A stretch of DNA of 64,000 bases, from NCBI GenBank assembly GCA_947034895.1, contig OX344765.1, forward strand, positions 35,655,001 through 35,719,000. The letters are read 5' to 3'. The stretch's first letter is position 1. Each line of letters opens with the position of its first letter. Below the pieces are notes generated by a model. It searched no databases and had not been told where the DNA came from. It saw only the letters and a list, made by a program, of their open reading frames with translations. The translations under genes were made by a program, and so were the position numbers. The DNA is from Rhytidiadelphus loreus (Eukaryota; Streptophyta; Bryopsida; Hypnales; Hylocomiaceae). Below, one piece after another: positions 9,701 through 64,000 of the stretch.

Positions 9701-12700
9701 CTTCACATAAATGACGATGACCAGTTCATGCTAGTCACCCGTGTTTATTATGTTGTTACGCTTGCGCAGGAATCTGGATGGCAACCACATTTCTGGGACC
9801 TTGAATCTGCCATTGATAAAGAACTTTTCTACGTTGCAGCAGATCTCGCTGGTCAATAACAACATCACTGACGTTGTGTTTCCAAATGCGAGTTTGCTAT
9901 CTGTTTTCAGTCTCACTTCGTCCGACCTACTTTTGTAAGTATCTGCATTTTTTCAATGACATTTTGATACAAACTCAGAATCTGTTTAATGGGTCTTGTT
10001 TGGCTGCTGCTTTTGTTTAAGTGTCTGAGAGTTGATGATTAATATTTTCAGGTTTATATTGCTTGTGACTGATTGCCTCCTTGGTTGAAATTTGCAGTCT
10101 TGGTGGAAATCCCTATTGCGTTGATCCTCAGTCAGCCCTTCAGCTGCAAATCTGTCGTTTAAATTCGAGCCAGATCTTGACAAGACGTCAGTATTTCATT
10201 AATTTGACCCTCTGGTTAATTCGCACAGGAAATTCTCAAGTTAGAAATCTCCAATAGAATAAGACCTTAGTTTGTTTTTTCCAGATCTCTGCACTTATAC
10301 TGGAAATTGAACTTCGTAATCAACGGAGGCCTTCGAATTTGTTTTCTCAAAAGATTGAAATATATATAACAAATATTAATGTAGATCAATAAAATATAAT
10401 ATTAGTTCTTGCGATAGATATAAGCTAGTCGTCAAAGTATAGCTTCTGGTTGTGCTCCTGCTGCTGCTTGAGGAAGTTTTCCTTGTCTATTCTTGTGTGT
10501 CGGGTAGGTAGTCCTCTGGTTCTTGATAAGATTAATAAAGCGGTTGTCTGCATTCTCATCACTAACAAAATCTCCGTTCACGGGTTGCTATTTTGGGGAA
10601 CAGCTGTTCGTGCAAAAACCAACTCGAAGCCGCTCATTATCGTTGTGACCTTTGCCGCAGTCCTCATGTTGCTAGCGTCTAGCGTCTTTTTGGTTATCAT
10701 CCGGAGATTGCTAAAAAGAATCATACTGCTTCGAGACCTTCATAGAGGTATGTTCTGTTAGTTCTTTTATTTATTTTCGATTCTACAACTTTGAGCAATC
10801 TGGTTGATTCTTCTCTTGCATGAAGTATCTGAAATGATTGAAAATTAGTGTAATGTTAATTCGATATGACAGCACTTAGGTGTTGAGAAATATTTTATCG
10901 CTTTTTGTATTTTCATTACTAAAATACTCAAGCGTTTTAAGATCTGCAATGAAAGTGGATATGACATTTCTGTTTTGTTTTGGTCTCAGAATTTGCGAAA
11001 AACGAAGTTCAACCGAACCTGTACTCATACACTGAGCTGAAGGTAGCTACTGAAGATTTTTCTCCCGACAGGAAGTTGGGGCAAGGTGGCTTTGGTATTG
11101 TATACAAGGTAACTTGTCATTTAAGTTGTGATTCATCTTTTTTACACTGATTGATATTGAGTTATCTGAATTTAATGGTGCACATAGCAACATAGTATTT
11201 TGTTTGAGATGAGTCGTGTTCTTCTCATTGAAATGGTGTGGTTGGATCGTGGTCACTCAGGGCGTTCTTCCCGATGGCACAGAATTGGCTGTCAAGCAAT
11301 TGACCAACTCGGAGCAAGGACTTGCAGAGTTCTTGAATGAGATTGTAACCATCAGTGGTGTGAAGCATCGGAATTTAGTTAGACTAAAAGGATGTTGCAT
11401 TAAAGGTGACCAACGAATGCTTGTATATGAGTATGTGGAGAACAAAAACCTTGCTGAAGCTTTATGGGGTATGTTTCACTATCTCTTCTAAGCTTGCTTT
11501 GGTTTAGGCTCATTGTCAAGTGAACATATTTAGAATCTGGCATGTAATCATTTATGTTGTTGATGTGTATGATGTTTTTTCCTGCAATGTTCTTCCGTGA
11601 CCTATGTTATATGTATCGTTTATCAATATGAAGTCAAATTGAATGAATTCTTGAACTTATGCGGAGGCTTGAATTTTGACTGGAAATCCACTTTGCTCTT
11701 ATAGATAGCCCTTCGATGGGAGGCCGTGAGCTGGACTGGTCGGCACGGTTCAATATCATTTTGGGGATCGCTCGGGGGCTAGCATACTTGCACGAGGAAG
11801 TAACTCCACCAATAATACATCGAGACATCAAAGCTGCTAACATTCTTCTTGACAAATATCTTGAACCCAAAATTGGAGATTTTGGGTTAGCGCTACTGTT
11901 TCCAACGCTTGATAACGACCAAGAAAATCGAACTCATCTGAGTGTCAATATTGCGGGAACTAAGTACGTTTTCAATCAAGAAAACTCGGCCGTTCACTTC
12001 AATATTTTCTATTGGTAGATTCTGTCATTTAGTTTCATGAATCTTTTATGCTTATGAAGAGTTACTAGATTCTCAGTACAGCTGTTGACGCTCATTGCTA
12101 TTCTGGAGCTAATGCATGTCTTGTATGTCCTTCAGGGGTTATTTATCACCAGAGTATGCAAGTTTGGGCCAAGTGTCAGAGAAAGCTGATGTATTCAGTT
12201 TCGGAGTCTTGGTACTTGAAATCATCAGTGGACGGAAAAACATTGCCTTGCGACTCCCCGCTGAGCAGCGATACATCCTAGAATGGGTGAGTTTGTTGGA
12301 TTCTCCTGTACCTGTTTTATCAACTGTTCTGTGAGTTTCTTGCATATGCATGGTATTTACACTGTCGTGATTATTTGGCAGGCATGGAAATTGTATGAAG
12401 CTGGCAAGTTGTCAGACTTTATTGATCCGAAACTGGTCGATAAATCGAGAGAGGAGGACATTAAGCAGGTCATGATATTAGGATTAGCTTGTGTACAATA
12501 CTCACCAACTAAAAGGCCAACAATGTCGAATATTGTGTCCATCTTATTGGGCCACCAGGCAGTAGGAGCTATAAACAGGGAAGGTGAACTGTCAAAAGAA
12601 GAAGTTGATACAATGTTTGCAACCATCCAAACAGCTTCCCTCACCCCAGTGAACGAAGACAGTCCTTTGCTAGTTGGCCTACCTACTGCAAGTGCCAGTG

Positions 12701-15250: not shown

Positions 15251-15291
15251 AACTAGCAATTGCATCCTATAGTAGGATTCATTAGAAACTT

Positions 15292-15843
15292 GGGGGATGC
15301 ATTTAGTTCTACTATAACAAACCACATGCGAACAAGTGGTTTCTAATAAACTATAATTTCAACCTAAATTTTTTAGCATTGTTTAATAATGACTATAGGT
15401 TTCTATTGCTGAAATTTCCAACTCAAAAAAAATATGAAATGATTTCTAGAAGAGGTTGAAAATGAACTAAAATGACATGTTTTTCAACTCAAATAATTAT
15501 AGAGGACACATTTAGATGACCATTGAATCAATATTCAATTCAAAATCAGCTTTCAGTAGAGAATAATATTCAGGAATTTTTTGTTCATTTTTAGACAAAT
15601 TTTTCTTATATAATATAGGGATGTGAAAGTTATTTTTTAGTTCTATAATGTATGTTTTTACTTCAAAAATTTGTAACTAATTATTATTAACAAATAAAAA
15701 TATTGATAATTCAAAACAGAAACTTTCAAAGTAGGAAAATCTATTCATATTTTATTTATTTATTTTTGTTTAAAATTTAAAAAGTATATAGGGGTTCAAA
15801 GTTTTGTTTGCATGTGGTTTCTAATGGATAGTCTAAGTGACCC
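15292..15843. mobile_element. MITE-like element, ~550 bp family, copy 1
   Basis: This element is near-identical over its whole length to 29304-29862 in the same orientation. Its ends form imperfect terminal inverted repeats: the left starts GGGGGATGCATTTAG and continues to AAACCACATGCGAACAA, and the reverse complement of the right end reads GGGTCACTTAG and continues to AAACCACATGCAAACAA. There is no coding capacity. The structure fits a non-autonomous DNA transposon. I could not define a target-site duplication, so the superfamily is open. Confidence 0.65.
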
Positions 15844-21812: not shown

Positions 21813-24800
21813 ATGGCGCAACAAAAGGAGCCCAACAACAACATGGTAGAGCTTGCTAACTTCTATAGCCAGCTATTCAGTGGTGTATTAGGGCACAATT
21901 TGTACCTTTATCATAGCCATTTTGCTTTCGAAGGCTACTATTTTTCATCAACATTGGTGACCTAATTTTGTTTGAATTTAAATGAAATTTACTTGGATTA
22001 TTTTTTGGAATATTAATAAGTTCTTTTACTAGTTGTTTGACTTGTTTGTTCCTACATTCTAGGGCAACAACAATGCTGTAGTGGTTGGTGAAGATGATGT
22101 GACTCAAAAAGGGAAACTTACAAATGCAGTAGATTCATCATTGCTAGGTTTGGGAACAAGAGCCCTCTCAAGCACGAGCACCAAACCAAAAGTGCCAGAG
22201 GGTTTCAACAATCTTCCAACAAAAATACGCCTCAAAGCTTTGAAAGAAGTAAGTTTGGTTGCAAGTCAAGTAGATGAGACAATTCATGTTGACTTTTCTT
22301 TAGGCAATTGTTTGAACTATGTTTTTAACTATATTTGATGCTCACTTGATGCTTTGTTTTTTCAAAAATTAGAATTTTGGCAATCATGGATGATAATAAA
22401 TGTGAAATAAAGAGGTTCAAGCTTTGAGGACTTACAATTGTGTTTGTTTTAATATGGTGAAATATGGAGAGCAGTATATTGAATCTTTTCATTATAGGCT
22501 CAACTCTCAAACAAACTTTAACACACACAAATTACGGCCTCTAGCACGCATCATGGATACAGCAAGGATGGTAAACTTACTAATCATCAATTAATAAGCT
22601 CTTTCATGCTCAAAAGTATGTAGTATTTGTGATATTGTCTCCACAATATAATATTTTGTTTTAAAGTTTCTATATATATTTTGGTAACTTGGCTTCAAGT
22701 TCGTGCTCAAGTTAATTCAACTAGTGCAAAATACTCCAATTGTTTTATGTATTTCATTTTTTTGTACTAGAGATCATTTTATCTTTATTTGTTTAGAGAC
22801 TTTTAGAGGGAGGAAGTATCTTATTTGCCGTGAATTCATTCAAAACTTGACAATAAATATTATTGTAGTAGAAAAATGAAATATTTAAAACAATCAATAC
22901 TTTATGGTCTAATTGAATTAACTTGAAAAGTACTTATTTGACTAAAAGCAAGCAAAAGGAGTTGTCCAATTAAGCCCTCATGGCCATTTTTTTTTTTAGA
23001 CATACTAATTTATGTAGGATTGTTTTTCTTAAAGAAGATAATAGATTTTTTTGTAAACCATTGTTGCAGATTATATATGCACCCCAACCCATCAAGTGCG
23101 TAGAAGCTGTTTTTGTTGCTCTCTATTTGACTGTAAGTATTTTCTTTTCCACCAGAAAGTTTTGAGAAATGCAGACTAGATTCTTACATCAAAAATTAGA
23201 TTAGACCTTACTAAAGAGTTAAATTTACAATTGTTATACTTTCATTTTTAAGTGTTTGAAATGAGAATATTTAAAAGATGGATTATTGATTTGGTCAGTA
23301 TTTGTGGATGCATTTGTGGATGTAGGCTGACCTATTTGATGTAGAGCGAGTTCCATTGGGGTTCAAAACTAAATTATATGGTCAGGTAGTCCCTTTTAGC
23401 ACAATGTGTTAACTGTGGGCCAATGACAGTTATGATCAAGGTAAAGCTATATTAGCAATAAAAAATAGTTAAATAAAAAAAAGTTAGATGGTTCAACCTA
23501 TTAAATTGAAAGTATAGAATATATATTGAATAGTTATTATATAATTAATAACTCTATTTATACATTGCAATAAAGACATGATGAAGGAGAGGTTACACAA
23601 TCATAATTAGCAATTTTAGTACAAAGATTTATTTAATTAATTGCTATATATAAATGAGTATGTACCTCAATATGATTGTGTAAACTTGTCTTTGTTTTTT
23701 GCTTTGCCTTTGAGAATGAATGTTTGATTTGAGAATTGGGCGTCAAATTGAATCTTGAGCTGCAGACGTATCAACACATTGTGCTTCTAGTGCAACATGA
23801 TGACAAGTGGGGAACTTTTGGAATAAGCCGTTGTCCCGATCTCATGAACAAGGACTTCATATTTGATAGGTAATATTTAGTTTTTAGAAGAATATTTTGT
23901 TGTTTTAAAGAATCCTTTATAAATAAGGATTTTGATTTGTTTGTTTGTTGTTTTATGAATTTTTCAAAATTTTCTACAAGCTTCTAATTATGCACATAGT
24001 TTGTCTCTAGATGTATAGATGATGATGAACTACTTTTCAACAATGAGATTATTGGTCATCTTTTACTTGAACTTAAAATGCTCATTTTGACAATGCATGC
24101 AGTATGTCAAGTGCAATAGAGAACTTCAAGAAAACCTATGAGTCACAACGTCACATCGTGCTTAAAGTTCGAGTAGGCCTCCCGGTTAGTTCATTAAAAT
24201 ATACTTTTTGAATTAAAAAAAAATAATCTAATGTCCAAATGATGATCATACTAGAACCCTTGTATACTTGCTAATGTTTTGAGGTAGTTAGATTTTAGAA
24301 ATAGTCTTATCTTCATTCTATTAATAGATATTGAACATCCTTTTCTCTATTAGTATTGGCATTCATCGATTATTATTAAGCTTATGAGGCTTAACAATAA
24401 TTGATTGATTCAGGGATTGATTAAGAAATCATCACAATTCTAGCTTTTATCCTAAAGACCAATGCTTTAGAAATCAAATTTGACATCTATTATTTTCTCT
24501 TTATTGCAAAGTTTTAGACCCAAGTTGATGTGTTTTCTTTGTACCCCTTTCAGGTTGAACATAGTATTATATCTCCAAATTTTGTATGTTGGCGTCATCT
24601 CAATCTCAATTTAAAATACACATCATGGTCAGAGGTAATCTAAGTCTTATCAATTGCAAACCTCCAACTTACCCCTTGAAGATCATCATTTCTATTTGCA
24701 TTTTTTCCTTTGTATCCCATTTTAATTCAAAGTTTCTCAAATTGATATTAGAATGGATATTGACACAGATACTACTAGTATCCTTTTGCTTGACTAAGTT

Positions 24801-26261
24801 GTGTTTTGGATAATTAGTGTATTGTTGCAATTCACAAGCACTCAACCCAAGGAAAAAGGCTTTGGGACTTGTAAGCCCAATGATCCATCTTTTCTACATG
24901 TATTAATGCCATCATATTAGCTTAAATTAAAGTAATTTCAAATAGGATCATTGTGTAAAAACAATATAGTTCAAATGTAAAATAACCATTGGATGGTCAA
25001 TATTATTTATAAAAGTTTTTTTGAAGCAATGAAAATTTTGAAATCCTCTTTGAATTGCTCAAGACATCTATTAAAATATAACCCTCAAAATTAATTGTTG
25101 AAGTAATTCTTGACAAAATCAAAAAATCAAAAAACTAAATTTTGGGACAAAGATTGTTGATGGCTTGATTTAGCAAAGTCTTAGAATTTATTTAATTTGC
25201 TTCAAGATAATTATTAGAATTTCTACTAGAGCAATTATACATCAAAACACTCTTCTACTGTTGTATTTTGATGTCCCACAACTTTGGCAATGTCCTTGGT
25301 ATTAATTAAATTTTTTATGAAAAAAACTAGGAAAATACATCTCTTTTCATTGTACAAAATTATTAGATCGCTATAATATCAAGTGAAAAAGAATATTTTC
25401 CTCACTATAGATACTTCACACTCGAGTTCACACTTGATACAAGGAACTAGGAAATATCTAAACAATTAAGAATGTTGCTTTGTAAAGTCAATCATAAATT
25501 CAAGGATGTGTCTCAAAAAGATTTTTTTTGATATTTAAAGAATGGTGTAATTTACATGTTACACAATTATTAATTTATAATGGAGTAATCAAAGACAAGT
25601 TTACAAACAATGAAAAGTATAATAATAACTTGTATTGGTGAATAGGTGGGTTCTTTCTGAAAAAAGCGAAGATCCACACAAATCAAAAGCCATATACAAG
25701 GCACCTTTGGACACCCAAGTTTTTCCTTTCAATAACAAAATTGAAGACAAAGGCAAGAAGAAAAAGAAGTTGTCTAGTCGAGATGCTATTCTTATAAAGG
25801 CCAAGTCCATTGCAATAGAACCAAACACAATTAGTTTTGGGGAAGCATCATCAACCTCCTATAATGTACTAGAAACTTCAACCATAGAGTCCCAAAGCTC
25901 TAAAACTATTACTGTTGCAATGTGTCCAACAATTGTGGGAAATAGCAAATTTAGGATATCAAAAAATAACAATAATAATTATGTAGATAAAAATGATCAA
26001 GCCAACTCAAAAGTTGGTAGAGGGACCAAAGAGATGAAAGTTGTGCCTGGTAGGATCATTATTAATCAAGTATTAGCTGTAAGCAAAGACATTTTGAGGG
26101 CCAAGCATTTTGAAAGCACAACTTCATTTGGATCACATCCTAAAATGATATTTGTAGGTCCCAATCTGTCGGTAAAGAGGATTCCAATTTGTATTTCTTA
26201 TCAAACACTTAATGCTGAAGCTCTAATTCAAAAGTCTCCAACTTTAGCAAAAGTTGGATAG
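21813..26261 (+). CDS. VASH: Vasohibin-like tubulin tyrosine carboxypeptidase (10 exons, 457 aa)
   Basis: Exons: 21813-21845, 22063-22248, 22475-22570, 23070-23132, 23326-23385, 23766-23869, 24103-24184, 24554-24634, 24818-24870, 25646-26261, all with GT-AG introns and one continuous frame. Residues about 50-235 align by eye with animal vasohibins: KLRPLARIMDTARM, PIKCVEAVFVALYLT, ERVPLGFKTKLYGQ, YQHIVLLV, FGISRCPDLM, HIVLKVRVGLP. The Cys-His-Ser triad is Cys115, His150 and Ser167; the 35- and 17-residue spacings equal those of human VASH1 (Cys169, His204, Ser221), and the substrate-contacting Lys and Arg beside Cys and Ser are kept. The family removes the C-terminal tyrosine of alpha-tubulin in the cytoplasm. 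The last exon encodes a long lysine- and asparagine-rich tail of about 200 residues, longer than in animal proteins. The first exon (11 aa) is the least certain. The acceptor of exon 3 at 22475 was chosen by phase and alignment. Confidence 0.87.
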
Positions 26262-28870: not shown

Positions 28871-29303
28871 CAAGTATTTCTTGAAACAACCTAAATGAGA
28901 AAAAATGGTGAAGTTGAATCCATAATCACCGGGTATTGTATTTTGGCAATTTGTGCTTTGTGCTTGGAATTTTGAATTTAAGCCCCCCAAAAGGTCTTTT
29001 TTTAAAATTTGAATTCAAATAATGACATGAAGTTTATCAACTCTAGTTTCTAGTACAATTCAAAAATTTCAAAAATTCCTAAACTTGAATATTTTGTTGC
29101 AATTTGAACTTTAGGCCTATTACTTTGGAGTGATGATTTTTGAATTTTCAAATGCTCATCAAAAAAAAAACTACATCATGGTGCTCTACATTATAATATA
29201 CACCTATGGAAAAATTTCAATTTCTTAAAGCATACTTTGTATTTAATATGAGTTTGTTTCACTTCTTACTCAAAAATTTATAGTAATTTCAAATTTCTAC
29301 CTT

Positions 29304-29862
29304 GGGAGGTGCACTTAGTTCTACTACATAAACCACATGTGAACAAGTGGTTTCTAATAAACTATAATTTCAACCTAAAGTTTTGAGCATTGTTTAATAA
29401 TGACTATAGCTTTCTATTGCCAAAATTTCCAATTCAAATAAAATATGAAATGATTTCTAGAAGAGGTTGAAAATGAACTAAAATGTCATGTTTTTCAACT
29501 CAAATAATTATAGAGAACACATTTAGATGACCATTGAATCAATATTCAACTCGAAATCAACTTTCAAAAGAGAGTTATTCTTAGGAATTTTTTGTTCATT
29601 TTTTAGACAAATTTTTCTTATATAATATAGGGGTATGAATGTTATTTTTTAGTTCTACAATGTATCTTTTTACTTCAAAAATTTGTAACTAATTATTATT
29701 AACAAATAAAAATATTGATAATTCAAAACAGAAACTTTCAAAGTAGGAAAATCTATTCATATTTTATTTATTTATATTTAATATTCAAAAAGTATATAGG
29801 GGGTCCAAAGTTTTGTTCGCACATGGTTTCTAATAGACATTGTAAGTGATCCCCCCCCCCCC
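29304..29862. mobile_element. MITE-like element, ~550 bp family, copy 2
   Basis: This is a near-full-length match to 15292-15843. The left end reads GGGAGGTGCACTTAG and continues to AAACCACATGTGAACAA. The reverse complement of the right end reads GGGGATCACTTA and continues to AAACCATGTGCGAACAA. The right end runs into a homopolymer of C, so its exact last base is uncertain. There is no coding capacity. Confidence 0.65.
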
Positions 29863-35828: not shown

Positions 35829-36566
35829 TCATGGTTTTCTTTGAATATCAGGATTATCTTTACACTCCGCAGCACGATGACCTTTTTGTTCACAATAAAA
35901 GCATCTCCCACCTTTCTTCAATTCCACAACTTTCTCACCACCAATCTTTCTCCCGTTTGTAAACTGAATGAAACTTTTTTTTCTACCACTCTCATTGATC
36001 AAATCACTCAAATCTTCCACCTTTCTCTGCCTCTTCGACGTCTTGTGACTAGATTCACCAATTGTCATTGCAGCTTGAGCCAACCTTTGAGTATCATATG
36101 CAGTCATTCTTTCACTCAAACCAAGCTTTCTCTCATTTTGTTTCTCGAAATGGTAACCACGGTCTAATCTAATATGGTCTGTAGTGGTAGTAGTCCTAAC
36201 AATGTTTCGAGACTCATGTGCCCAAAGCTCTTGGGAAGCAATTGGCAACAAGTGATCAGCTTCTTTCTCGCCAGGAGCTTCGTATCCTGACAGTGCAATT
36301 TCCTTGTCGTCTTCGTAACTCATTCGAAGTGACTTGATGAACTTCTCCCACGACGATTTCTCTTTGCCAGCGGCTTCAATTGTCTTGGCAGCCTTAAGCC
36401 AATGCTCATAAACTGCATATTCAATGTCAGATCTCTTGTTCTTTAGCCTGGCGACAGTAGACTTGAGTTCATGAACTGCAGCACTGCCTTCTACTATGTG
36501 GGTGGCAATCCGATGCACCAATGCTTGTAAATTCTCTTGCTCGGCATCGCTCATTTCTTGTGTCAT
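35829..36566 (-). CDS. Solitary gag-like CCHC zinc-knuckle protein (245 aa)
   Basis: This is a single uninterrupted frame starting at ATG 36564-36566. The N-terminal 100 residues are predicted mostly helical and charged (AVHELKSTVARLKNKRSDIE, EHWLKAAKTIEAAGKEKSSW). The middle is hydrophilic. The C-terminus has a basic stretch followed by one zinc knuckle, C222-x2-C225-x4-H230-x4-C235 (CFYCEQKGHRAAEC), ten residues before the end. CCHC knuckles of this kind bind nucleic acid and are typical of retrotransposon gag proteins. No protease, integrase or reverse transcriptase lies on either side and I see no flanking long terminal repeats. It may be a remnant, a non-autonomous element or a host gene derived from gag. 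It is clearly GC-richer than its flanks, and its frame is free of stops. Confidence 0.65.
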   Translation of the reverse strand: MTQEMSDAEQENLQALVHRIATHIVEGSAAVHELKSTVARLKNKRSDIEYAVYEHWLKAAKTIEAAGKEKSSWEKFIKSLRMSYEDDKEIALSGYEAPGEKEADHLLPIASQELWAHESRNIVRTTTTTDHIRLDRGYHFEKQNERKLGLSERMTAYDTQRLAQAAMTIGESSHKTSKRQRKVEDLSDLINESGRKKSFIQFTNGRKIGGEKVVELKKGGRCFYCEQKGHRAAECKDNPDIQRKP

Positions 36567-39500
36567 CGTTTTTTCAGAGTAGAAAAGTGAAAGAAAAGTA
36601 CTAGTACAAGTTCTACATTCATGTGAAGAAAGGGTAGTTATACTCTATCTATGGAAGTGGAATGATGCAGGTTGCGAGCTTTCAAACTTTTCTACATACC
36701 CGTTCTCAATTTGTTTCACGGTCTCGTTCAATCCTGCGCCAAAGGCTCATTCAAACTTTTGCATATGTTGATTGATTTCCATCCTGTGCATGATCAGCTT
36801 ATCCAATTTTTTTGTGGAGATTCTCATTTACTCCCAAAGCTGAGGCTCATTTCAATCTTGTGGAGAGGCTCATTCAATCTTGTTTCTAGGCTTGTTCCAG
36901 TCTGTACAATTATACAATAATTAGTTTGGAAACAATTTACTAACATGGTTGTTTATGTTGCCACTAACTAAAGGTAGGCACCCAAAAAGTGCCACTTCTC
37001 ACTACTGGACCTAGTTACTATATTATTAGATTGGTCACCTTAGTATGATCAAATCAAATAAGTCTAATTGAGTACCAAGTAAAGTACACAATGACCTTAT
37101 TGACACAAAATGTTGATACTTGTTCCTATTAGCTTATTCACCTTTTCAATTAAACTTCAAAAAATAACTAGAATGGAGCTTGCAATATGATTCCAAAAGG
37201 ATTTCATTAAGCTGAAAGGTTTTAATTTGATGGTATTAGGGTTTAATTAGCAAGAATGAATGAATGATTAAAAAAACGACACGGATTAAAATAAGATGGA
37301 TGAAATTGTAGCAAAGTTCATATTCAATATAAGAAATAATTGTCTTCAAATTTCACCTTTTTAGTTAAGCTTAAAGGCTTGCTACAACTATAAATAAATT
37401 TGTCAATTTTTAGGCACATGATTTTTTCTTCTAGAGAGACTTCTACCGTTATTGATAATATTGTAAATAATATTACTCTTGAGTTGAACAATAAGATTGA
37501 AATTAATTAGTAAATTCCATTTTATCTATCTCGGGTTTTGCCTTTCATAACATTTAGTAACATGCACTATCATTACCTTGGCTCTACAATAGATGGTGTG
37601 GGATATTCCACAGCCAACAACCTTCATGCCAACTACTAGTGGGCCAAGGCAATGACAATGTATGTTACTAAATGTTATATTGTAGGGTGTTTGAAAGTCA
37701 ATGAGTTTTTATAAAACATTTCTTAGGTTGCAAAGGATCATAAGAAATGGGTTTTTTTAATAGAAGGTTTTTAGGTAATGTAAGAAAGTGGCATTCTTTT
37801 TCACAATTATTGAAAAAAAGTGTTTTAAGAATCATGTTGAATTAAAATTGTAGGAAGTGAGCTTTAAATCTTTGAAACTTCAATTTTCTTTATATAATAT
37901 GACACATGGCAAGTCATTTCTATGTTTTGGGGGCTTTGAAGTAGTACCTTGAAAAAATAGATTGTAACTTAAGTTGTTCTAGTTTTAAGATGAACCAGAG
38001 TTGTTGTTTTCTCTTTAATATAAGACAAGTGTCCTAAAAAATGTGTATTTATATCCAGGATTTTATATATTTTTTCAAGTTGATAGAAAGCATTGATACA
38101 TTGAACTTTATATAACATGTTCAAAATCTTAAAAGTAAAAAATAATAATTTTTTGTTATAAAGATAGAATTTAAAGTAAAAATTAAAATGTGTCCCAAAG
38201 CAAAGTGTATCAATTTAATATTTAACTTAATATTGTTGAACTTGCAATATACCATCCTTTTACAAAACCTAAATTTTGGTTGTCATAAAGATCTCTTTTA
38301 ATATATAAAGATATCAATTTGATTTCAGCAACTTACCTCTTTTTATAGCTTTCTAAAAGATATGACCACAATGACTTCGCAAACTTCCAAAACTTCCTTG
38401 GTCTGTAGTAATCTCTATATGAACACCTTCCACTTTTTGTCATAAATTTCTATCCAATTTTGCTACTAAACTTGTTGAAAACTTCCTATATTCTTTAGAT
38501 CTTTAATGAAATATACTAAAATCATAAATCAAATTCTAATTTTAGTCTACAAGATAGCAAATTTGTGTTGATCTACCTTGGTTCAAACATATAAAATCCA
38601 AAAAACTCCACCTCTAGTATATTTTGACAATCTATTGTAATTTGATCCTAATCCTTCTAGATAAAAATGAACTCAATGAAACTATTCTAAATCTACATCA
38701 GCATGAACCTTCCAACTATGAGGCAACAACTCTATGACTCCCTCAATATTCACAAGTATACTCATTAATAAGAAAAAAGATGATTCTCTCTAGCCTTGGG
38801 GTCTCTTTTTATATCCTCTCCTAATGCCCAGTTGTTGCCTTCTAATTAAAGTGATCTAAAGCAATTGTTAACTCATCTTATTTTAAGATCAACATGAATT
38901 ATATTAACTCTTTACACCTAATTTTGAATTTGTACTACCACTAAGGTCTATGATAACTCATTTTAACTTATCTTGAGCTTGAACTACTATCACACAAGTT
39001 ACAATAAGCTTAACTCACACTAGTCACTCATCTAAAAGTCTTTGAAAGTACATCTTGCACTTTGGACATAAAAATAAAAGTTAAAAAAATTGGATGCGGG
39101 ATTAAATAGTAAAAGGAATTGCCTTGCCATGTTAATAATAAAATAGTAACAGATATTCAAAATTCTTAATCCTTTGAGGACTAGACGTTTAGATTTTGAA
39201 GAACAGATCAAAGTAAACACATCCCAAATACACAAAATGCCTTTTTCATCCATCAATTTTTTTTTGTAGACTCTTGTGTTATTTCTTTAACATTTTTATA
39301 GCATAGATTCTAAAGAATTTAAATTTAAAATATTGTAAAATTCAAACGGCACTAATAGTTTTGGCATCAAAAAGTAATTTTTCAATTGAAAAAATGACCT
39401 TTCAAAAACAACTTGAATAAAAAAGTAAAACAAAAATCTCAAAAATCACTATGATTAGAATTTAACATTTTGAACTCAAAAAAACAAAAATTCTTGTGAA

Positions 39501-43875: not shown

Positions 43876-46800
43876 TTACCTGCTCCCTGCAGGAATTCTG
43901 TCCTGCAAATACTGCAATAATGCTTTTGTGCCTTTCTCCAGAATTGGTCGTCTTATACTGCATAAGGGTAAAAGAACATGTTGAGAGTCTCACCTCACTC
44001 TGAGGGCCTACTCATATTGGTAGTTTGCAGACAGACCAAACAAGCGAATTACAACAGGACCCAATCTCAAAAACCTCATAATACACGGAGCAAGTCCTGC
44101 AAATTTGAGCATGATAATATGTCCCCAAAGAAAAGAAAGTAACTAACACGAATTTCAAAGATTATTACGAGTGGCACACAAGAATATAGTAAATAATACG
44201 TACCTCCGCAAGGGATTGCCATCTACTTTCAGATGCTTCAAAGAGGGTTCAAGTAGACCCTGCACTCGAACAAAGAGATACTTGTCAAAAATAGCACAAA
44301 CACCAGCAAATGAAAATCCTGAAAATCCTCCTTCCAAAGTTTTAAGGTAAAAACTCAATTCGTCACATACCAATTTAGGCGGAAGCTGTGAAATGTTGTT
44401 GTCGGAGATGTCAAGCGTCTCCAAGCGAGCTAAACAAGTTATCCACTGCATCACGAATCTAATGTGTCACTGAAAGTCACATGAAGCTTACAGATATCGA
44501 AAGCAAGAGCACGGGTTCGAAAACGAATAGCACAGACGTGCTCTATACATCTACTTCTCTACAATCCCAAGAAATGTTGCAGGAGAGTCTCTAATATACC
44601 CTTGCAAACCATAGGTATTCTTGAAAGACAAACTGATGTTGCCAAAATAAGCGTAATGAGTTGCTAAGCGTTTAGCATAGAAAATGTTTGGAATGAAAAC
44701 CTCAGGGATGACACTGATGGAATTTTGGCTGACATCAAGAATGCATAATTTCTGTAAGGACTTCAAGTCTTCTCGGAAATCCTGAAGCTGAGTCCTCCTG
44801 AAATCCAGATTCCAAATAATCAGAAATTCAACAACTGCACCTGCTGAAGTAAATCCTCGGTGATACAGTCCCTCAAAGCAGCTCAGTATTTGCAGACAGG
44901 GTGAAAATTGATGTCACGCTTCTCGATATCGAAAAATTGAATTCACAAATGACTACTCATTACATTTGCTTTTTGAACAACTTCAACGCAACTATTTTAC
45001 TTGCATACACCTGAAATCAATTATATTGCACGGATCACGTAAGTCATCAGAGAGGAGACCTATCATGAATAGCTTCATTTACCTCAGACGAAGTTCTCGC
45101 AAGTTTGGCATCTCCGCTAACGCTGGAGGAGGAGGCAGCCTGGATGGAGTTCCACTCAAATCTAATACAACAAGCTTTGCAACTGCGACAAAGGCTCCTT
45201 CAGGAAACTGTTCCACAGGAAGATGAAATATCATTCATTACTACCAGCCTCGACAAACTAGCTACATATGAAACACTAAAACAGTGCTGCCACAGACCAG
45301 AGAGATTACACTTAACACAGAAAAGACATGCCAGACGATGTGTCCTGCCTTGAAAGAAACTGGAAAATTTAGATATAGATTAGTATACCTCACGAAACGG
45401 GTTGTAAGCAGCGTGCAATTCTTGAAGATTTGGTACGGAGCCTAGCACTGCACCTGGCCACTCTGCAAGCTTATTATTCGATAGGATCAAAACCTGTGTC
45501 ATTAACAAACCTAGAGTCATCATTCCGAGTCCTTCTGGCTCTAAGCATAGAGCACAATTTGAGATCCTGACATAAGAAATTCGTGAAAGGGCTTACTTAC
45601 TAGAATTGACGGCATCATATTTCAGATACTGGATTTATTATCCTAATCGAAAGCATAATATGGGATGCATACTAGATCTTCATTCTCAGTGAGAAAATTT
45701 CCACCTAATTGATAAGATGTTTCTGGGGCTATCTCACCTCCAAAGCTGAGCACATAGAAAGTTCAGTTGGCAATGCCTTGATCTGGTTCTGACTCAGATC
45801 TAGAGTTGTGATGTCAGATGTTTCCCATGCCGCCGGAGGAACCTCAAAAAGTTTTTTCTTTGTTAAAGACAGAATCTGAATATACAACATCAAATTGCCA
45901 ACATTAGAAAGAGTGAGACAATCTAAATGCGAAATACTCTTGGAACCATTCTGGAGCTGTTGTCAGCACTTCAACAGACACCATACTAGCAGAATACATC
46001 CACCATATGGCAGACTAGCTGAAAAAAACGCAGATCATCATGTAAAGGTGGGATGTTAAAACGACTATCATGACCAACAAAAGAGTTCAACGGAATGCCT
46101 GAAGTCATACGAGATAGAATTAAAAATTCAACGATGCACCAGACCCCAAAACAGGCACCTGGCCACGCCAAGTTGACCATTGATACATCACAAGTGTGGA
46201 AATAACAATAATATAGAGCTTACCTTCGAAGCCGAAGCTTGACGAGCTGCATGCACGATTTGGTCAGGTAGACCTATCGTACCGAACACATTTCCTGATG
46301 CTGGCCCCTGCTCATTGGCTTCTGTAAAGAAAAATGTTTAATCTATGTACAAAGCACTTGACAAACTTTAAGTCAAATCAGGTCAGTTTATCTGAGCATC
46401 GAACTTGGCCCTGAACGCATTCAACACCCCCCCTAATAAAAGACGCTATCATATACATGAATACAAATAAAAAAAACAAGTTGCGGAACTGAATCCAATG
46501 TAGAGGCAGAATTTCTTGCCTGTTTCAGCCTCTGTTTCAGGAATTCGAGATTGAAGGTACTTCAGCAAAGCTGGAGTGGGTCCCATGACAAGTGTACTGC
46601 AAGAAGTATACTCCACGCAAATGGATTTAGACGCAAGGCAATAGATGTAGAGATTTCTTGAAAGACGAGAATGCATGAACTGACAAAACTCAGACCAACT
46701 GACATGAAATCACCCTAGCTTGCATTCCAGTTAGACAGCGTACCTTCGAAGGGACCGCATTGGATTACCAACCAGCAATAGCTTACGCAGAGAAGTCATG

Positions 46801-49800
46801 GCACCTGCCTCAAAAGGATGAAGCAGAATTCAGAAATAAGCAAAACATGGTCTCTACCTACGTCAATATAAAACAAAATGCCACTATATTGTTATTAAGC
46901 ACGTTCATCAAAGGCAGGGCATAAAACACTGCATAAAACAGATTGAAGGGGACGTACCAAGCTCAGATGGCAACCCCGAAAGGTTGTTATTCGACAGATC
47001 CAGGAGTGACAATCGCAATGAGCAAGCCTTAGCTGGATACTCTGTCAGCTGATATTCAAAGTGAATGAGTATGAGTATTAGCTCACAGCTGATATTCCAC
47101 TTAAATATAACATAAGAATTCCACTCGATTACAACATGACAATCTATAAAATATCAGAGCAATCTTTAATTTAAGAAGGTTCCCGGTTTCAGGTTCCTGA
47201 ATTAGGGGCAGAGTACAAAAGTGTACCTGGTTCGAGTGAAGATCAAGATTGCTCAAACTCTTGAGACTTCCAACCTCATCAGGAACTACCTTCAGTAGAT
47301 TATCACTGCAGTAACAGGAGACTAACAGTAACTACACAGTGTGTCCCCAGTAGATAGTATACTGCTCATGAGTAAAATAAAAAAATCTTCTATAAGGTTG
47401 AAGATTGGAGAAATCACGCAATTCATCGATCGCATGACGAAAGACAATCTAATCGAGGTCAAACTGGATGACAATTTCTAATCTGATTAATCTAATAATG
47501 AGCGATACTAACAGTGTACAGTGCTAAAAAACATTCAGATCAACTAAAGAGAGGTTGCCAGACAAATGATCAGGACAGAATACTTGTGCTAAACCTAAAG
47601 TTCAGTGAATTTCAACGGAACAGGAAATATCTTTTCTGTAAATACAAATATGTGAGATACACACCCCAAGAAAAGCTCCAACAAAGATGAACATCCCGCA
47701 ATTGATGGTGGAAGGTAAGTGAGGCCTGTAACAAAACCAATACCAAGATTAACTGATACACACTTCTCCATTTACAGAAAGTGTCGACGCATGAGCATGT
47801 TTTAAAGAAAGTAAAGTTCTCCTAACTTCCAACACGAAATCTAAGTAAATAAAGCCTCTCCAGCAATGGACACACAATACTAGAGAAGGATATAAAGTAT
47901 TCACTATGCTTGTGCGATCACTGTGGTGTGGTACATACGGTTCTGATGAAGGTCAAGGCGAATAAGCTTCGATAGTTTTCCCAAAGAATTAGGCAACGCC
48001 GTGAGTGCATTTCTTCCTACAATCAGAAGGACATCAAGAAAAATGCAGAAGTAGGACATCAATAAGAAAAGAATATGGAAACATTCAATAAGAAAATTGG
48101 AAACTTGGTATCCCAGTGCGAAGCAAACAACTCTAAGAAAGCAAACAATTTTTACGACATTATGCCACGAGACTATCTCGGGTGCATGAATAGGAAGTAG
48201 TTGCCCTTCTGTTAATTCAATAACCAACATACGACAGCAAGCCCTATTGCATTAAGATTTATCTGATATGGTACTTGCCTGCACTCAGTTCGGTCAAATT
48301 TGGAAAGGAACTGAATAAGCTCTCAGATAGCTCACTGATACGATTGCTCTGTTACATCATCATCGTCCCTAGTGAAAAAAAACTTCAAAGAAATCTAGAA
48401 CAAACATTGAAACTGTGGCATCTCCAAAACATGATGTGATTGTGTGGGATTATGACGGTTTTTAACTGGCATCTTAAAATATCGAAATACACGCATAAGA
48501 GCAAATACATAATGAAGGTCATAACATCATAACTTACACTGAATTTGCACAACCACGTTAGTAGGCACTCTAAAAACGACGTAGAAAACATGGAAAACAG
48601 CATCTACAACGAAAAAAAAATTATTTCATGAAATGTTTCATGCCTCAATATTAAGCGTAGAAAGCTTAGAACAGCTCCCTAGTTCCTCCGGAAGAGTAAC
48701 TAGCAAATTGTTGTGTGCCTGACCAAAAACATTACAAAATCTATTAGCCTTGCTCATACTGAAGACCATAAACCAAGAGAGAACGGGCAATTTCATCAAT
48801 ACAGCTTATATTGGTATTCTGCCGCAGCTTGTGAACAGTGTCAAACAGATTATGAGATTATGTCTGGCCAAGCATATCGAGGTATGGCATAATTGTACAG
48901 AGTACAACTTCCAACACCTATGTCAGAGAAAATGTTGACATCCTAATTATCAAAAAAAATCTTAGCTTCCATCGCTAAAGGAAGTAGCAAAATAGCCTCG
49001 AGCAGCACATACTCCTTTCCAAATTGGTTTATCAGCATAACCAACGCACCTTAAGCTCCACCAACTCGGTGCACCTACCAAGGCTACTGGGAAGCTTTGA
49101 CAAAGAATTGCTTGCACAATTGAGTCTGATGCAAAGAAGAGCAGAAAATTAGTGACGTCTGACCAAAGCAACCCAACAATATACAACCATATAAATTCAG
49201 TTTCTTTTGTACTAATAAATATAATTTTAAACTACATAACGAGACAATGAAGCACATAGACTAAAATCTGCCAAGAAGGAATGGTTTAGAGAAAAGACCT
49301 GACTAGGGAGGTCAAAAGTCCTAGTTCGGAAGGCAGCTCTACAATGGAGTTGCCAGAGACATCAAGAATCTTCAGCAGGGCGAGACTACACAACAAGATC
49401 AGCAGGATCACAAAGGAGTGAGAAATTCCACCACTTGCAAGGTTTTTTAAAAATTGAACAAGACCATGAAGAAATTTTAGAACTTACTTGCCAATAGCTG
49501 GAGGTAGAAATGTTAGCTGATTGTGACTCAAATTAAGAAAGGTGAGTGAGCCAATGTCCCCCAACCGATCAGATATGCCTGCAATATTGTTGTGCGATAT
49601 GTCAAGCTTGTGAATCTCCACCACCTAGCATCAAACAATGTGTTAAACAATCACATAACAGCTGGAATCAAGGTCTATAATCCGTATTCTATGAAGGTAA
49701 GCTAACAAGATAAATAGGTATCAAAATGGTGCATAAACAGGAACTCTAAATATCCCATTAAAAGCATCTTGAATTAAACAATTTAACATGGCTTTGAGTT

Positions 49801-52380: not shown

Positions 52381-52805
52381 AAAAAACTGCCCTTGTCTAT
52401 CAAACAATTGCGTTATGACAATTGCACCGTGGGTATCGGTGTTCCTGCATTGACACTCCTTACAACAGGTGCAAGCCAATTTTCAAATAAAGGAAACTCT
52501 ACTGGTGACTTTGTGCAGATTCGAAAACAGGGTTATCGAGACCCTGAAGTGCTCAACGTATCATCCTTCCTGAAACCGAGAAAAAAAAGCTCTCTGAAAG
52601 AAGTCAACGTAACAGAACAGCAAGCAAAAGCTCAAAGCTCTAACAAAGGATTCTTCTACTCTCATCCTACACACAGTGGGAATGGATACATCCATAACCG
52701 TCGATTCCTACAGCACCAAATCAGGTGCATGCTGACATGGTGATGCACAAGCTTGAAACTGTACGGTCTCCGCAGACTGAAGGCAATTCAAGCCTCCAAA
52801 TACAT
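52381..52805 (-). repeat. Diverged 3' flank shared by the two CCT2 copies (copy 1)
   Basis: This stretch aligns with about 62224-62597. Shared landmarks are 'ctgcccttgtc', 'caacaggtgcaag', 'ctctactggtgactttgtg', 'ctctctgaaa', 'cacacagtgggaatggat' and 'tgatgcacaagcttgaaact'. Substitutions and indels are frequent, in contrast with the adjoining gene bodies. It includes the 3' untranslated part of CCT2. Confidence 0.7.
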
Positions 52806-52840
52806 CCACTTCAAAATTGCAGATCTGCCAAATGGAAACC

Positions 52841-55800
52841 TTACATACGGTCTTCTCTTTGCCTAGGAGCGCACTTAATAATCTCGTCCACACGGAGGAT
52901 CATTTCAGAAGCCTCAGTTGCTGACAATAACACAGCTTGCTTCACCTTAAACGACTCATAGATGCCAAGCTTCTCCATATCTCCAACCTGAATGGAAGGA
53001 CAAAACAGTACATACCACCATCAATGCACATCAACAGAAACAAACCGAAAACTCCAGAATTAAATATTGAACCGTTCTAGAACAAACAAAAAATCAAACT
53101 GTAAAATGACGAAGCATCAAAGCTGTACCTCTCCAGAAATGACATCAATGCCGGACCTGCAACCATCCTCGGAGTGAGCAGCTCGTAATTCCGACACTAA
53201 TTCCGCACTATCCAAACCAGCGTTGTCCGCGATAGTGGTGGGAATGGCTCTCAACGCAGTTGCGAAGGCGTCAATAGCAAGAGACTTCTTTCCTGCCGTT
53301 CGACGGCCAAGTTCCTCTACGCGCCGAGCCATCAAAAACTCCGGCCAACCACCGCCCCAGATGACACGGCTGTCTTGAACTGTTTGGACTAACACGCACA
53401 GGGCGTCATGGAGGGACCGCTCAGCTTCATCTAACACATGGGAACTGCAACACATAAAAAACGCTTATCAACAACTGAAAGAATGACAAGAGAAAATGGT
53501 TTAAAACGCCTCAAACCGGACCCTGAATCTAGAAATTAAACGCGTCCACGAAAAGTGAAAGATAAGAAAACAAAAAGGTATGCAAATAAAATGGACAAAA
53601 AAAACAGAGCACGCATCCAGATGATGCGAAAAAACAGACCATCACATTTCCGAGAAAAATAAACCCTAGAAAAAGCATAAAAACAGACACAAACGCCAAG
53701 AGCCAATGCAAAATACATGGGGAGAATAACAACCTGGCACCACGCAGGACAATGGTACAAGCCTGGCCCAGGGCAACACCCGAAAAGTGGATCAGGCGGT
53801 CTTCACCGATCATGATCTCCTCGATCAACTTGCAATGGCCCAGCTTCACATTCCCAGGATCATTGAATGTCGAAATAATTTCTCCTCCCGTCACCAGGGC
53901 CAAACGTTCGATTCCCTCAAAATCAGCATGCTCGATGGCCATGATCCCAGCATCTGCGAAAAGCTCCTCGGGGTAGTTATAAATAAGCTGACGATTCACA
54001 AAGCAATTAATACCATGTTTTAAGATGTTCTCCACTTTGTTCTTCATTTTGATCTTTTCCGCCGCCTCAATGTCGGCCACCTTCGACATCGCATCCACAC
54101 GCACACGAGCACCATAGATCTTCACCTTGTCCGTATCCATGGCAGTATTAGCGACAAGAATGTTCGCATTTTCAATGCGTTTAGGTTGACCAACTCCGAT
54201 CTTCTTGTCCAAAATGAACCTGCAATCCACAAAAATAAGAGAAAGGTGAATACAACGGCAACACAAGCTGAAATCGGATGAGATTCGAAACACCAGACAT
54301 GGCCTCCTGAGTTCAATAAAAGTACCCCTCATCCAAAAAGGAATCCTTCAATGCTCCACCGCACTTCTTAATGATCTGGATGGCCTCCATATTCATACTA
54401 CCCTGCATTCATTTCACACCGCACACTTCAGTCACATCCAATCATAGGATAACCTAAAATACACACCATTCGTAAGCGACAACGCAGACGCCATAATAGT
54501 TGCAAAAAAAAGATAATCAGAAAAAAAGCACCTCCGGGAACATGAGTAAATGGGAAAACCAATCCCAGACTTCACAATCGACACATGTCACACAAGTGAA
54601 TCAAAGAACAGGAAGGGATGAACAAGGCTTCACCTTCAGTCTCAGAACAGCATCAACAGCAAGATTTGCGAAGTGCACTTTGTCCTGGGACAAGATTTTA
54701 GAACTCAGAGTTGTCATCGCAATATTCACAAGATCGGACCTGAATTGCTCTGCAACACATCCACAAGTCATTACTCACAAATATAAATAAACCAGTTCTC
54801 TTCCGCATATTTATCATGGACAAAGTGATGCACGTCTCTGCGATCTGGTAGTCAATGATATCTGACGGGAGAAAATGACGGGAGGAAGATCGTCCAGTAC
54901 CTAAGTTGTCTTTGTTATTACGCACAGAAGCTGCGAGAGTACTACGTGCAGACTCAGACGCCATGCGATATCCTGCATGGATAAAAAAACAGCAACCACG
55001 TGAATGTGTACACAAAGCACAAGGTGTGCAGCTTCTAAACATGTCACAAACACTGCAATCTTCTTGCAAATTAAGGAATGATTTTTGAAGATCAGTGGTC
55101 TAATCAACAATCATATTCAGAAAAACAGGTTCGGTTACAACAAACACCTCCAGCCGAAAAAATCAGCGGACGGGAAAAAATACACTTGCATGGAGAACAT
55201 GTGGCAGGTTCCACATACCTGCGATGATGGTCATAGGATGAATCTTCAGTGCAATCAACTTCTCGGCCTCACGAAGCAACTCACCAGCCAAAACGACGAC
55301 AGATGTGGTGCCATCTCCTACCTCATCGTCCTGCACCTTCGAGATATCTGCCAAAAAATAATAGATGGCAGAGCCGAGAATCCCATCAAAAACCTCGCGG
55401 ACACAAAACAACCACCCAGCAAAGAACACCACGCTCCAACAAGAAAATCACTTAAGAACGTAAAGAAATTCAGACTTTCCTGGACTTGGAATCAGATACA
55501 AAAACTCTGAACTAATTATCTACGTTAGACCATGAAATGATGTCGGAGAATGCCGACAGACTGGAGCGGATAGTAATTAGGGACAAAGCCCTTGCAAAAT
55601 GAGGATAGTTGCCTAGGAAATCACTTAATGAACTACAAACTCAGATTTAAAGGAAACCTTCTGGATAAAGCAAGAAAAGTACTTTCCAGTAACTCTTAAA
55701 ATCAAAATGAAAGGCATATACTAAGTGGGATAATGAGGTTCAGCACGAAGTGCAGCAGGCAGGATAAAAGACGCACCGACAAGGACTTTGGCAGCTGGGT

Positions 55801-62223: not shown

Positions 62224-64000
62224 GAAAAAAACCTGCCCTTGTCGATAAAACAAGTAGGACTCGGTGAACCTGTACTGACTTTCCTTCCAACAGGTGCAAG
62301 TCAATGTACAAATAAAGAAAGGGAACTCTATTGGTGACTTTGTGGGGCATCAAAAAAAGGGTAAATAACACCCCGAATTCCTGCTTCCTAAAACCTAGAA
62401 AAAAAGGCTCTCTGAAAAGAGCGCAAGCAAAAGCTCCATGTTCTAATAAAGGATTCTGGTGTTCTGATCCTACGCACAGTGGGAATGGATCCATCCGTAA
62501 CCGCCGATTCCTAAGGGTGAAAAGTAAAACGGTGATGCACAAGCTTGAAACTATACGGTCTCCACAGCCTGGAAGCAATTCAAGCCTCCAAACATATCCA
62601 CTTCAAAATTGCAGATCTGCCAAATGGAAACCTTACATACGGTCTTCTCTTTGCCTAGGAGCGCACTTAATAATCTCGTCCACACGGAGGATCATTTCAG
62701 AAGCCTCAGTTGCTGACAATAACACAGCTTGCTTCACCTTAAACGACTCATAGATGCCAAGCTTCTCCATATCTCCAACCTGAATGGAAGGACAAAACAG
62801 TACATACCACCATCAATGCACATCAACAGAAACAAACCGAAAACTCCAGAATTAAATATTGAACCGTTCTAGAACAAACAAAAAATCAAACTGTAAAATG
62901 ACGAAGCATCAAAGCTGTACCTCTCCAGAAATGACATCAATGCCGGACCTGCAACCATCCTCGGAGTGAGCAGCTCGTAATTCCGACACTAATTCCGCAC
63001 TATCCAAACCAGCGTTGTCCGCGATAGTGGTGGGAATGGCTCTCAACGCAGTTGCGAAGGCGTCAATAGCAAGAGACTTCTTTCCTGCCGTTCGACGGCC
63101 AAGTTCCTCTACGCGCCGAGCCATCAAAAACTCCGGCCAACCACCGCCCCAGATGACACGGCTGTCTTGAACTGTTTGGACTAACACGCACAGGGCGTCA
63201 TGGAGGGACCGCTCAGCTTCATCTAACACATGGGAACTGCAACACATAAAAAACGCTTATCAACAACTGAAAGAATGACAAGAGAAAATGGTTTAAAGCG
63301 CCTCAAACCGGACCCTGAATCTAGAAATTAAACGCGTCCACGAAAAGTGAAAGATAAGAAAACAAAAAGGTATGCAAATAAAATGGACAAAAAAAACAGA
63401 GCACGCATCCAGATGATGCGAAAAAACAGACCATCACATTTCCGAGAAAAATAAACCCTAAAAAAAGCATAAAAACAGACACAAACGCCAAGAGCCAATG
63501 CAAAATGCATGGGGAGAATAACAACCTGGCACCACGCAGGACAATGGTACAAGCCTGGCCCAGGGCCACACCCGAAAAGTGGATCAGGCGGTCTTCACCG
63601 ATCATGATCTCCTCGATCAACTTGCAATGGCCCAGCTTCACATTCCCAGGATCATTGAATGTCGAAATAATTTCTCCTCCCGTCACCAGGGCCAAACGTT
63701 CGATTCCCTCAAAATCAGCATGCTCGATGGCCATGATCCCAGCATCTGCGAAAAGCTCCTCGGGGTAGTTATAAATAAGCTGACGATTCACAAAGCAATT
63801 AATACCATGTTTTAAGATGTTCTCCACTTTGTTCTTCATTTTGATCTTTTCCGCCGCCTCAATGTCGGCCACCTTCGACATCGCATCCACACGCACACGA
63901 GCACCATAGATCTTCACCTTGTCCGTATCCATGGCAGTATTAGCGACAAGAATGTTCGCATTTTCAATGCGTTTAGGTTGACCAACTCCGATCTTCTTGT
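62224..64000 (-). repeat. Segmental duplication of the CCT2 3' region (copy 2, runs off the window)
   Basis: This is a direct-orientation duplicate of 52381-54208. From 62598 to the window end it aligns to 52806-54208 without any gap (constant offset 9,792), and I find four differences in about 1,400 bases. Left of 62598 the similarity drops abruptly to that of an old duplicate with indels. Confidence 0.9.
62633..64000 (-). CDS. CCT2: CCT2 second copy, C-terminal part (truncated by the window end)
   Basis: The visible exons are 64000-63526 (entered inside the exon), 63236-62921 and 62779-62633, each the exact counterpart of the last three exons of the complete CCT2 gene, with the same splice sites and stop codon. 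The encoded residues are identical to copy 1: the only coding difference found, in a Val codon within HFSGVALG, is silent. No premature stop or frameshift is seen. Whether the copy has a complete 5' end cannot be judged here. If complete, the organism would carry two genes for the same TRiC subunit. It could also be a partial duplicate. Confidence 0.88.

Follow-up and report, generated by a model that had tools for sequence, protein, structure and literature searches.

A vasohibin gene with an apparently intact catalytic site in the moss Rhytidiadelphus loreus, a probable alpha-tubulin detyrosinase, and a putative pseudo-vasohibin among its paralogues

The stretch of the Rhytidiadelphus loreus genome considered here (hereinafter the window) comprises 64,000 nucleotides, positions 35,655,001 to 35,719,000 of the forward strand of contig OX344765.1 (GenBank assembly GCA_947034895.1), and carries at 21813-26261 on the plus strand a gene of the vasohibin family of tubulin detyrosinases. 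Rebuilt from the sequence, the gene has 10 exons and 9 introns, all nine of which are of the GT-AG type, and its spliced form of 1374 nucleotides provides 457 codons and a single terminal stop, with no internal stop (Table 1). The rebuilt gene agrees with the sequence-only reading of this DNA, which had described ten exons joined by GT-AG introns, 457 residues and the motifs PIKCVEAV, YQHIVLLV and GISRCPDL. Even without recourse to RNA sequencing the exon joins are supported, because introns 2-9, compared by eye, have identical positions and phases in two paralogous loci of the same genome. Exon 2 shows 62% identity over 50 residues to a protein of the moss Ceratodon purpureus (KC19_VG152000, hereinafter P0001), and exon 10 shows 40% identity to it over 231 columns. 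An acceptor for exon 3 before 22498 was rejected as it breaks the frame, and the one before 22475 was used instead. The weakest part of the gene model is exon 1, whose 11 residues have no match in any of the relatives compared.

Table 1. Exons of the window vasohibin gene (window coordinates) and its two paralogous loci (coordinates on contig C2)
Feature	Position	Strand	Content
Exon 1	21813-21845	+	MAQQKEPNNNM, start codon; ATG and in-phase donor GT; least certain exon
Exon 2	22063-22248	+	N-terminal tail; opening helix of the core (VDSSLLGLG ... RLKALKE)
Exon 3	22475-22570	+	YIESFHY ... THKLRPLARIMDTARM; Tyr80, Lys92, Arg94; acceptor gagagcag/TATATT; junction matches paralogues
Exon 4	23070-23132	+	PIKCVEAV: Lys114, nucleophile Cys115, Glu117
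Exon 5	23326-23385	+	From exon reconstruction and paralogue comparison
Exon 6	23766-23869	+	YQHIVLLV (His150); GISRCPDL (Ser167, Arg168, Cys169, Leu172)
Exon 7	24103-24184	+	From exon reconstruction and paralogue comparison
Exon 8	24554-24634	+	From exon reconstruction and paralogue comparison
Exon 9	24818-24870	+	Last helix of the core; from exon reconstruction and paralogue comparison
Exon 10	25646-26261	+	C-terminal tail, KKKKK at residue 290, stop
Paralogue B	C2 ~48,655,550-48,659,520	+	PIKCVEAV, intact triad, long N-terminal extension
Paralogue C	C2 ~21,472,850-21,477,800	-	PIKSVEAV, GISPNPDL: catalytic Cys to Ser, Arg to Pro

The sole Pfam family found in the encoded protein is Vasohibin (PF14822), which covers residues 50-246 with 164.4 bits (E = 3.7e-48) against a curated cut-off of 24 bits and bears out the identity first proposed from the motifs. 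Among solved structures in the PDB, the best relatives are VASH2 (6.6e-30) and VASH1; 60 of 182 aligned residues (33%) are identical to VASH2, whereas the bacterial CPR-C4 protease stands apart at 12% identity. All 23 of the best Foldseek matches to the predicted model of P0001 are VASH1 or VASH2; the transglutaminase-like VASH fold of the window protein is predicted from this orthologue. The window protein shares with the animal enzymes this predicted fold, the Cys-His-Ser site and most tail-binding residues, but differs in a C-terminal tail without a VASH match, which in the P0001 model is of low confidence and free of secondary structure.

The triad of Cys115, His150 and Ser167, with spacings of 35 and 17 residues, had likewise been read correctly and corresponds to residues 169, 204 and 221 of VASH1. 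We compared the site across 27 rows, namely 23 of 72 database relatives (see below), three proteins of this genome and VASH2: in VASH1 numbering, His204 is present in 27/27, Ser221 in 26/27 and Cys169 in 24/27. In addition to the whole triad, the window protein keeps Tyr80, Lys92, Arg94, Lys114, Glu117, Arg168, Leu172 and Lys175, five of which (K92, R94, K114, R168 and K175) correspond to the tubulin-tail-binding basic residues; it differs at two positions, having His91 where VASH1 has Lys145 and VASH2 an Arg, and Cys169 where VASH1 has Arg223. Hence, the earlier statement that the neighboring Lys and Arg are present holds for Lys114, Arg168 and Lys175 but not for the final Arg of the 'SRR' motif of animals, whose place is taken by Cys169. 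In VASH1, activity is disrupted by C169A, C169S and H204A, mutants of S221, K168 and R222/R223 are defective, and L226A and changes at K145/K146/R148 lower activity (PMC6937246); in VASH2, another study reports activity to be cut by charge reversal at K135, K157, R211, R212 or K218 (PMC6642083). Together with the profile and structure matches and the tree described below, these residues support the gene being a real, intact vasohibin of plant origin with an intact catalytic site.

A sequence search and a profile search recovered 31 and 63 related proteins, respectively, together amounting to 72 database proteins. The plants named among them are the mosses Ceratodon, Physcomitrium and Sphagnum, the liverworts Marchantia and Riccia, the lycophyte Selaginella, the fern Adiantum and the streptophyte alga Klebsormidium; among the 31 and 63 matches, many of them nameless, no seed plant appears by name, the profile search having scored 7995 candidates only. 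Of the proteins that bear a name, those of mosses stand nearest, Ceratodon first and Sphagnum next. More distant members of the family, in which the triad is also present, include a Marchantia polymorpha 'tubulinyl-Tyr carboxypeptidase' (P0005, 60.6% core identity to the window protein) from the liverwort lineage and a Selaginella 'vasohibin-1' (P0009, 55.2%) from the lycophyte lineage. A midpoint-rooted tree was built from 28 rows, comprising three proteins of this genome and 25 of the 72 from the database, and 12 of its 25 inner branches reach the strict support mark; lycophytes with ferns are recovered at 82/92, liverworts with mosses at 97/91 and mosses at 99/96. The window protein groups at 96/98 with P0001 and one unnamed protein (hereinafter clade A). 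P0001 is 58% identical over 93% of the window protein and 81.8% identical in the core, and has the same letters at 13 site positions; it differs in being annotated as a hypothetical protein, in the V tag of its name and in its shorter branch.

This placement inside the mosses also argues against the locus being a contaminant or a horizontal acquisition from an alga or animal, a notion in favor of which no point was found and which we reject as exceedingly improbable, given further that the gene sits on a contig of 50.7 Mb and has intron positions in common with two other loci of the genome. The assembly amounts to 407 Mb in 489 contigs, of which the five large ones, C1-C5, measure 94.4, 89.9, 84.8, 75.1 and 50.7 Mb (the window lies on C5), while each of 14 further contigs sized is of 115 kb or less; this suggests that the five large contigs correspond to five chromosomes.

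We consider it likely that the locus encodes a moss clade-A vasohibin acting as a transglutaminase-like cysteine carboxypeptidase that detyrosinates alpha-tubulin, most likely in the setting of sperm. In such an enzyme Cys115, activated by His150 and aided by Ser167, would attack the last peptide bond of alpha-tubulin and release its tyrosine, with the acidic tubulin tail being held by Lys114, Arg168, Lys175 and Lys92/Arg94; the C-terminus, disordered and bearing a run of lysines, might tether the enzyme to the microtubule lattice. Several observations weigh against this proposal. The branch of the window copy is longer than that of Ceratodon (0.26 vs 0.07) and the third-position guanine-plus-cytosine (GC) fraction of its gene is lower than in paralogues B and C (0.37 vs 0.53 and 0.46), both of which could mean relaxed constraint; one of the five VASH2 charge-reversal residues, R212, is replaced by Cys169; and some mosses may lack clade A because the Physcomitrium matches include a gene of a further clade, D, but none of clade A. 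The branch length, the GC fraction and Cys169 could together point to a decaying copy with reduced or absent activity. We hold such decay to be improbable: internal stops are absent, every splice site is intact, the triad is present and the core remains close to that of Ceratodon. Moreover, Cys169 is unlikely to be a new defect because it is common to 4/4 rows of clade A and Sphagnum.

The substrate of a detyrosinase exists in this genome because each of the seven alpha-tubulin genes read has a terminal Tyr (EEY or EEEY); these were among 12 loci read from the 26 matches of a genome search with Tubulin_C, the other five being beta-tubulins. That the protein might have kept its fold and chemistry while acting on something other than alpha-tubulin would fit its divergent tails, the loss of one tail-binding Arg and the absence of SVBP-type first helices, but we regard this as quite unlikely in light of the tyrosine-ended tails, the retained equivalents of K146, R148, K168, R222 and K229, and the need for a vasohibin homologue in Chlamydomonas detyrosination, as reported in a 2025 study (PMC11770126). 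Some alpha-tubulin genes stand in pairs of opposite orientation: C5:39640567 with C5:39643296, 2.7 kb apart, and C2:12764521 with C2:12892240, 128 kb apart.

A role in sperm is plausible from the taxa of the named matches, by analogy with cilia of Chlamydomonas and from the V-tagged Ceratodon relative. The Chlamydomonas study describes mutants of VashL (Cre05.g241751), a green-lineage vasohibin homologue likened here by description and not by sequence, in which detyrosinated ciliary tubulin is strongly reduced, intraflagellar transport shows stoppages and cilia regrow more slowly, with no change seen in the structure of the axoneme; its authors describe the locus via the SVBP peptide (PMC11770126). 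In Trypanosoma brucei the axoneme stays tyrosinated after VASH loss, according to a further report (PMC12714142). We posit that the most likely setting of the moss enzyme would be the axoneme and the microtubule band of swimming sperm, where detyrosination might sort intraflagellar transport as it would in Chlamydomonas. The 'VG' in the name of P0001 we take to denote the V (male) chromosome of Ceratodon; the contig bearing P0001 is 110.5 Mb long and the P0001 cluster has three members, on one contig. Other Ceratodon rows have tags reading as chromosomes 1 (P0006), 4 (P0152) and 3 (P0183), and no U tag appears in the Ceratodon names displayed, though these are abbreviated. It is possible that the clade-A gene is male-limited in Ceratodon, although a missing annotation would give the same picture. 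In R. loreus, 20 samples of 10 kb, four per contig across C1-C5, were compared for GC, open reading frame (ORF) length and 16-mer sharing, and do not set C5 apart. An active detyrosinase might instead serve somatic microtubules, such as the phragmoplast or cortical array: seed-plant cells show detyrosination according to two papers (PMC4378638; PMC11720312), and the several moss paralogues could share out tissues. Yet seed plants have phragmoplasts and are not named among the matches, with the same caveat about nameless rows, and the closest relative is V-chromosome-tagged; a somatic role appears rather unlikely to us.

In contrast to the animal VASH-SVBP complex, the first helices with which VASH grips SVBP have no counterpart in the window protein. 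The PDB match begins at window residue 49 and the matches of the P0001 model at VASH1-numbered residues 86-104, depending on the row, leaving the N-terminal helix contacts Trp74, Trp78 and Val81 without equivalents; further contacts, Gln133, His136, Thr137 and Phe141, are replaced in an ungapped alignment by His79, Leu82, Asn83 and Asn87. A search of this genome for SVBP (PF15674) gave no matches, but no control genome gave any either, and the same type of search missed the window's vasohibin exons; no plant is named among the best 120 of 235 SVBP homologues listed. We propose that the enzyme is probably independent of an animal-type SVBP. A stretch of exon 10 common to clade A, IINQVLAVSKD, slightly resembles the SVBP helix and was considered as a partner in cis, but was dropped as it falls in the low-confidence, helix-free part of the P0001 model.

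The family is already reported in the bryophyte lineage, and the novelty implied by the sequence-only reading is not borne out: bryophyte vasohibins were published in 2016 (PMC4866520) and the Marchantia protein bears its enzymatic name in the database. The 2016 paper places plant homologues in green algae through bryophytes and in no vascular plant (PMC4866520), which is contradicted by the vasohibins of Selaginella (P0009, P0154 and P0155) and Adiantum (P0016). Among papers on plant tubulin, one from 2015 describes the tubulin-tyrosine carboxypeptidase of plants as not yet identified (PMC4378638), and one from 2024, which deals with rice and tobacco, states that plant homologues of the animal enzymes have so far not been found (PMC11720312). 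No study of a land-plant vasohibin was found among the papers listed from the open-licence literature searched. What is new here are further vasohibin genes including a dead paralogue, the V-tagged closest relative and the lack of counterparts to the SVBP-holding helices, with added interest attaching to the pseudo-vasohibin, for its conservation, and to the V-tagged relative. The gene and its kin offer a concrete detyrosinase candidate for seed-free plants that is amenable to knock-out in moss.

At least two further vasohibin loci are present in this genome, both on C2 (Table 1). Paralogue B has its orthologues in Ceratodon (P0006) and Physcomitrium (P0008). Paralogue C, in which Cys also replaces Tyr134, has orthologues in Ceratodon (P0152, PIKSVEAV/GISPNPDL) and Physcomitrium (P0012, PIKAVEAV/GINSNPDL), forming a clade supported at 100/99. 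The nucleophile is lost in 3/3 members seen, being Ser in this genome and in Ceratodon and Ala in Physcomitrium, the same two changes that disrupt VASH1 (C169S and C169A). The clade C protein seems to be under constraint similar to that on catalytic clade B because its core identities (82.8, 81.3 and 77.4%) are near those of clade B (82.8, 83.3 and 78.2%). The predicted fold of P0152 is that of VASH, with VASH2 as its best PDB match (4.2e-20); ten-residue means over model residues 171-370 are 76-98, with the minimum at 191-210, a stretch that takes in the tail-binding loop. Judging by its residues, clade C appears to be a conserved moss pseudo-vasohibin, of which no prior report was found in the open-licence literature searched. 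The 2016 paper states Cys and His to be completely conserved across the family (PMC4866520); on the sequences seen, clade C is an exception as regards Cys. As a natural C169S/C169A mutant kept by evolution, it might probe vasohibin roles other than cutting. We tentatively raise the prospect, which we think doubtful as a whole, of a two-part moss system without an animal-type SVBP, in which catalytic A (perhaps male-limited) and B are joined by an ancient dead C that would bind or shield the tubulin tail, or regulate or stabilize the active enzymes, chiefly during sperm formation. If true, the pairing of a sex-linked tubulin detyrosinase with a pseudoenzyme of its own would add something new to the tubulin code. 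In clade D, the Physcomitrium vasohibin gene model P0011 also bears PF14223, which we take to be a retrotransposon gag domain, and its Ceratodon counterpart P0183 ends ahead of the catalytic His.

Elsewhere in the window, a segment of a chaperonin gene (Cpn60_TCP1) is duplicated at 52436-54208 and 62261-64000 with 94.2% identity, and the second copy continues beyond the window end. A dispersed repeat links 15289-15843 with 29301-29852 (91% identical). Protein kinase exon pieces at 11213-12015 (+) resemble by eye a leucine-rich repeat (LRR) receptor-like kinase; an LRR protein was likewise recognized by eye at 44158-48251 (-), two pieces of which gave no Pfam match when scanned. At 35832-36644 (-) lies a gag-like ORF of 271 residues with a weak CCHC zinc knuckle scoring under the Pfam cut-off.
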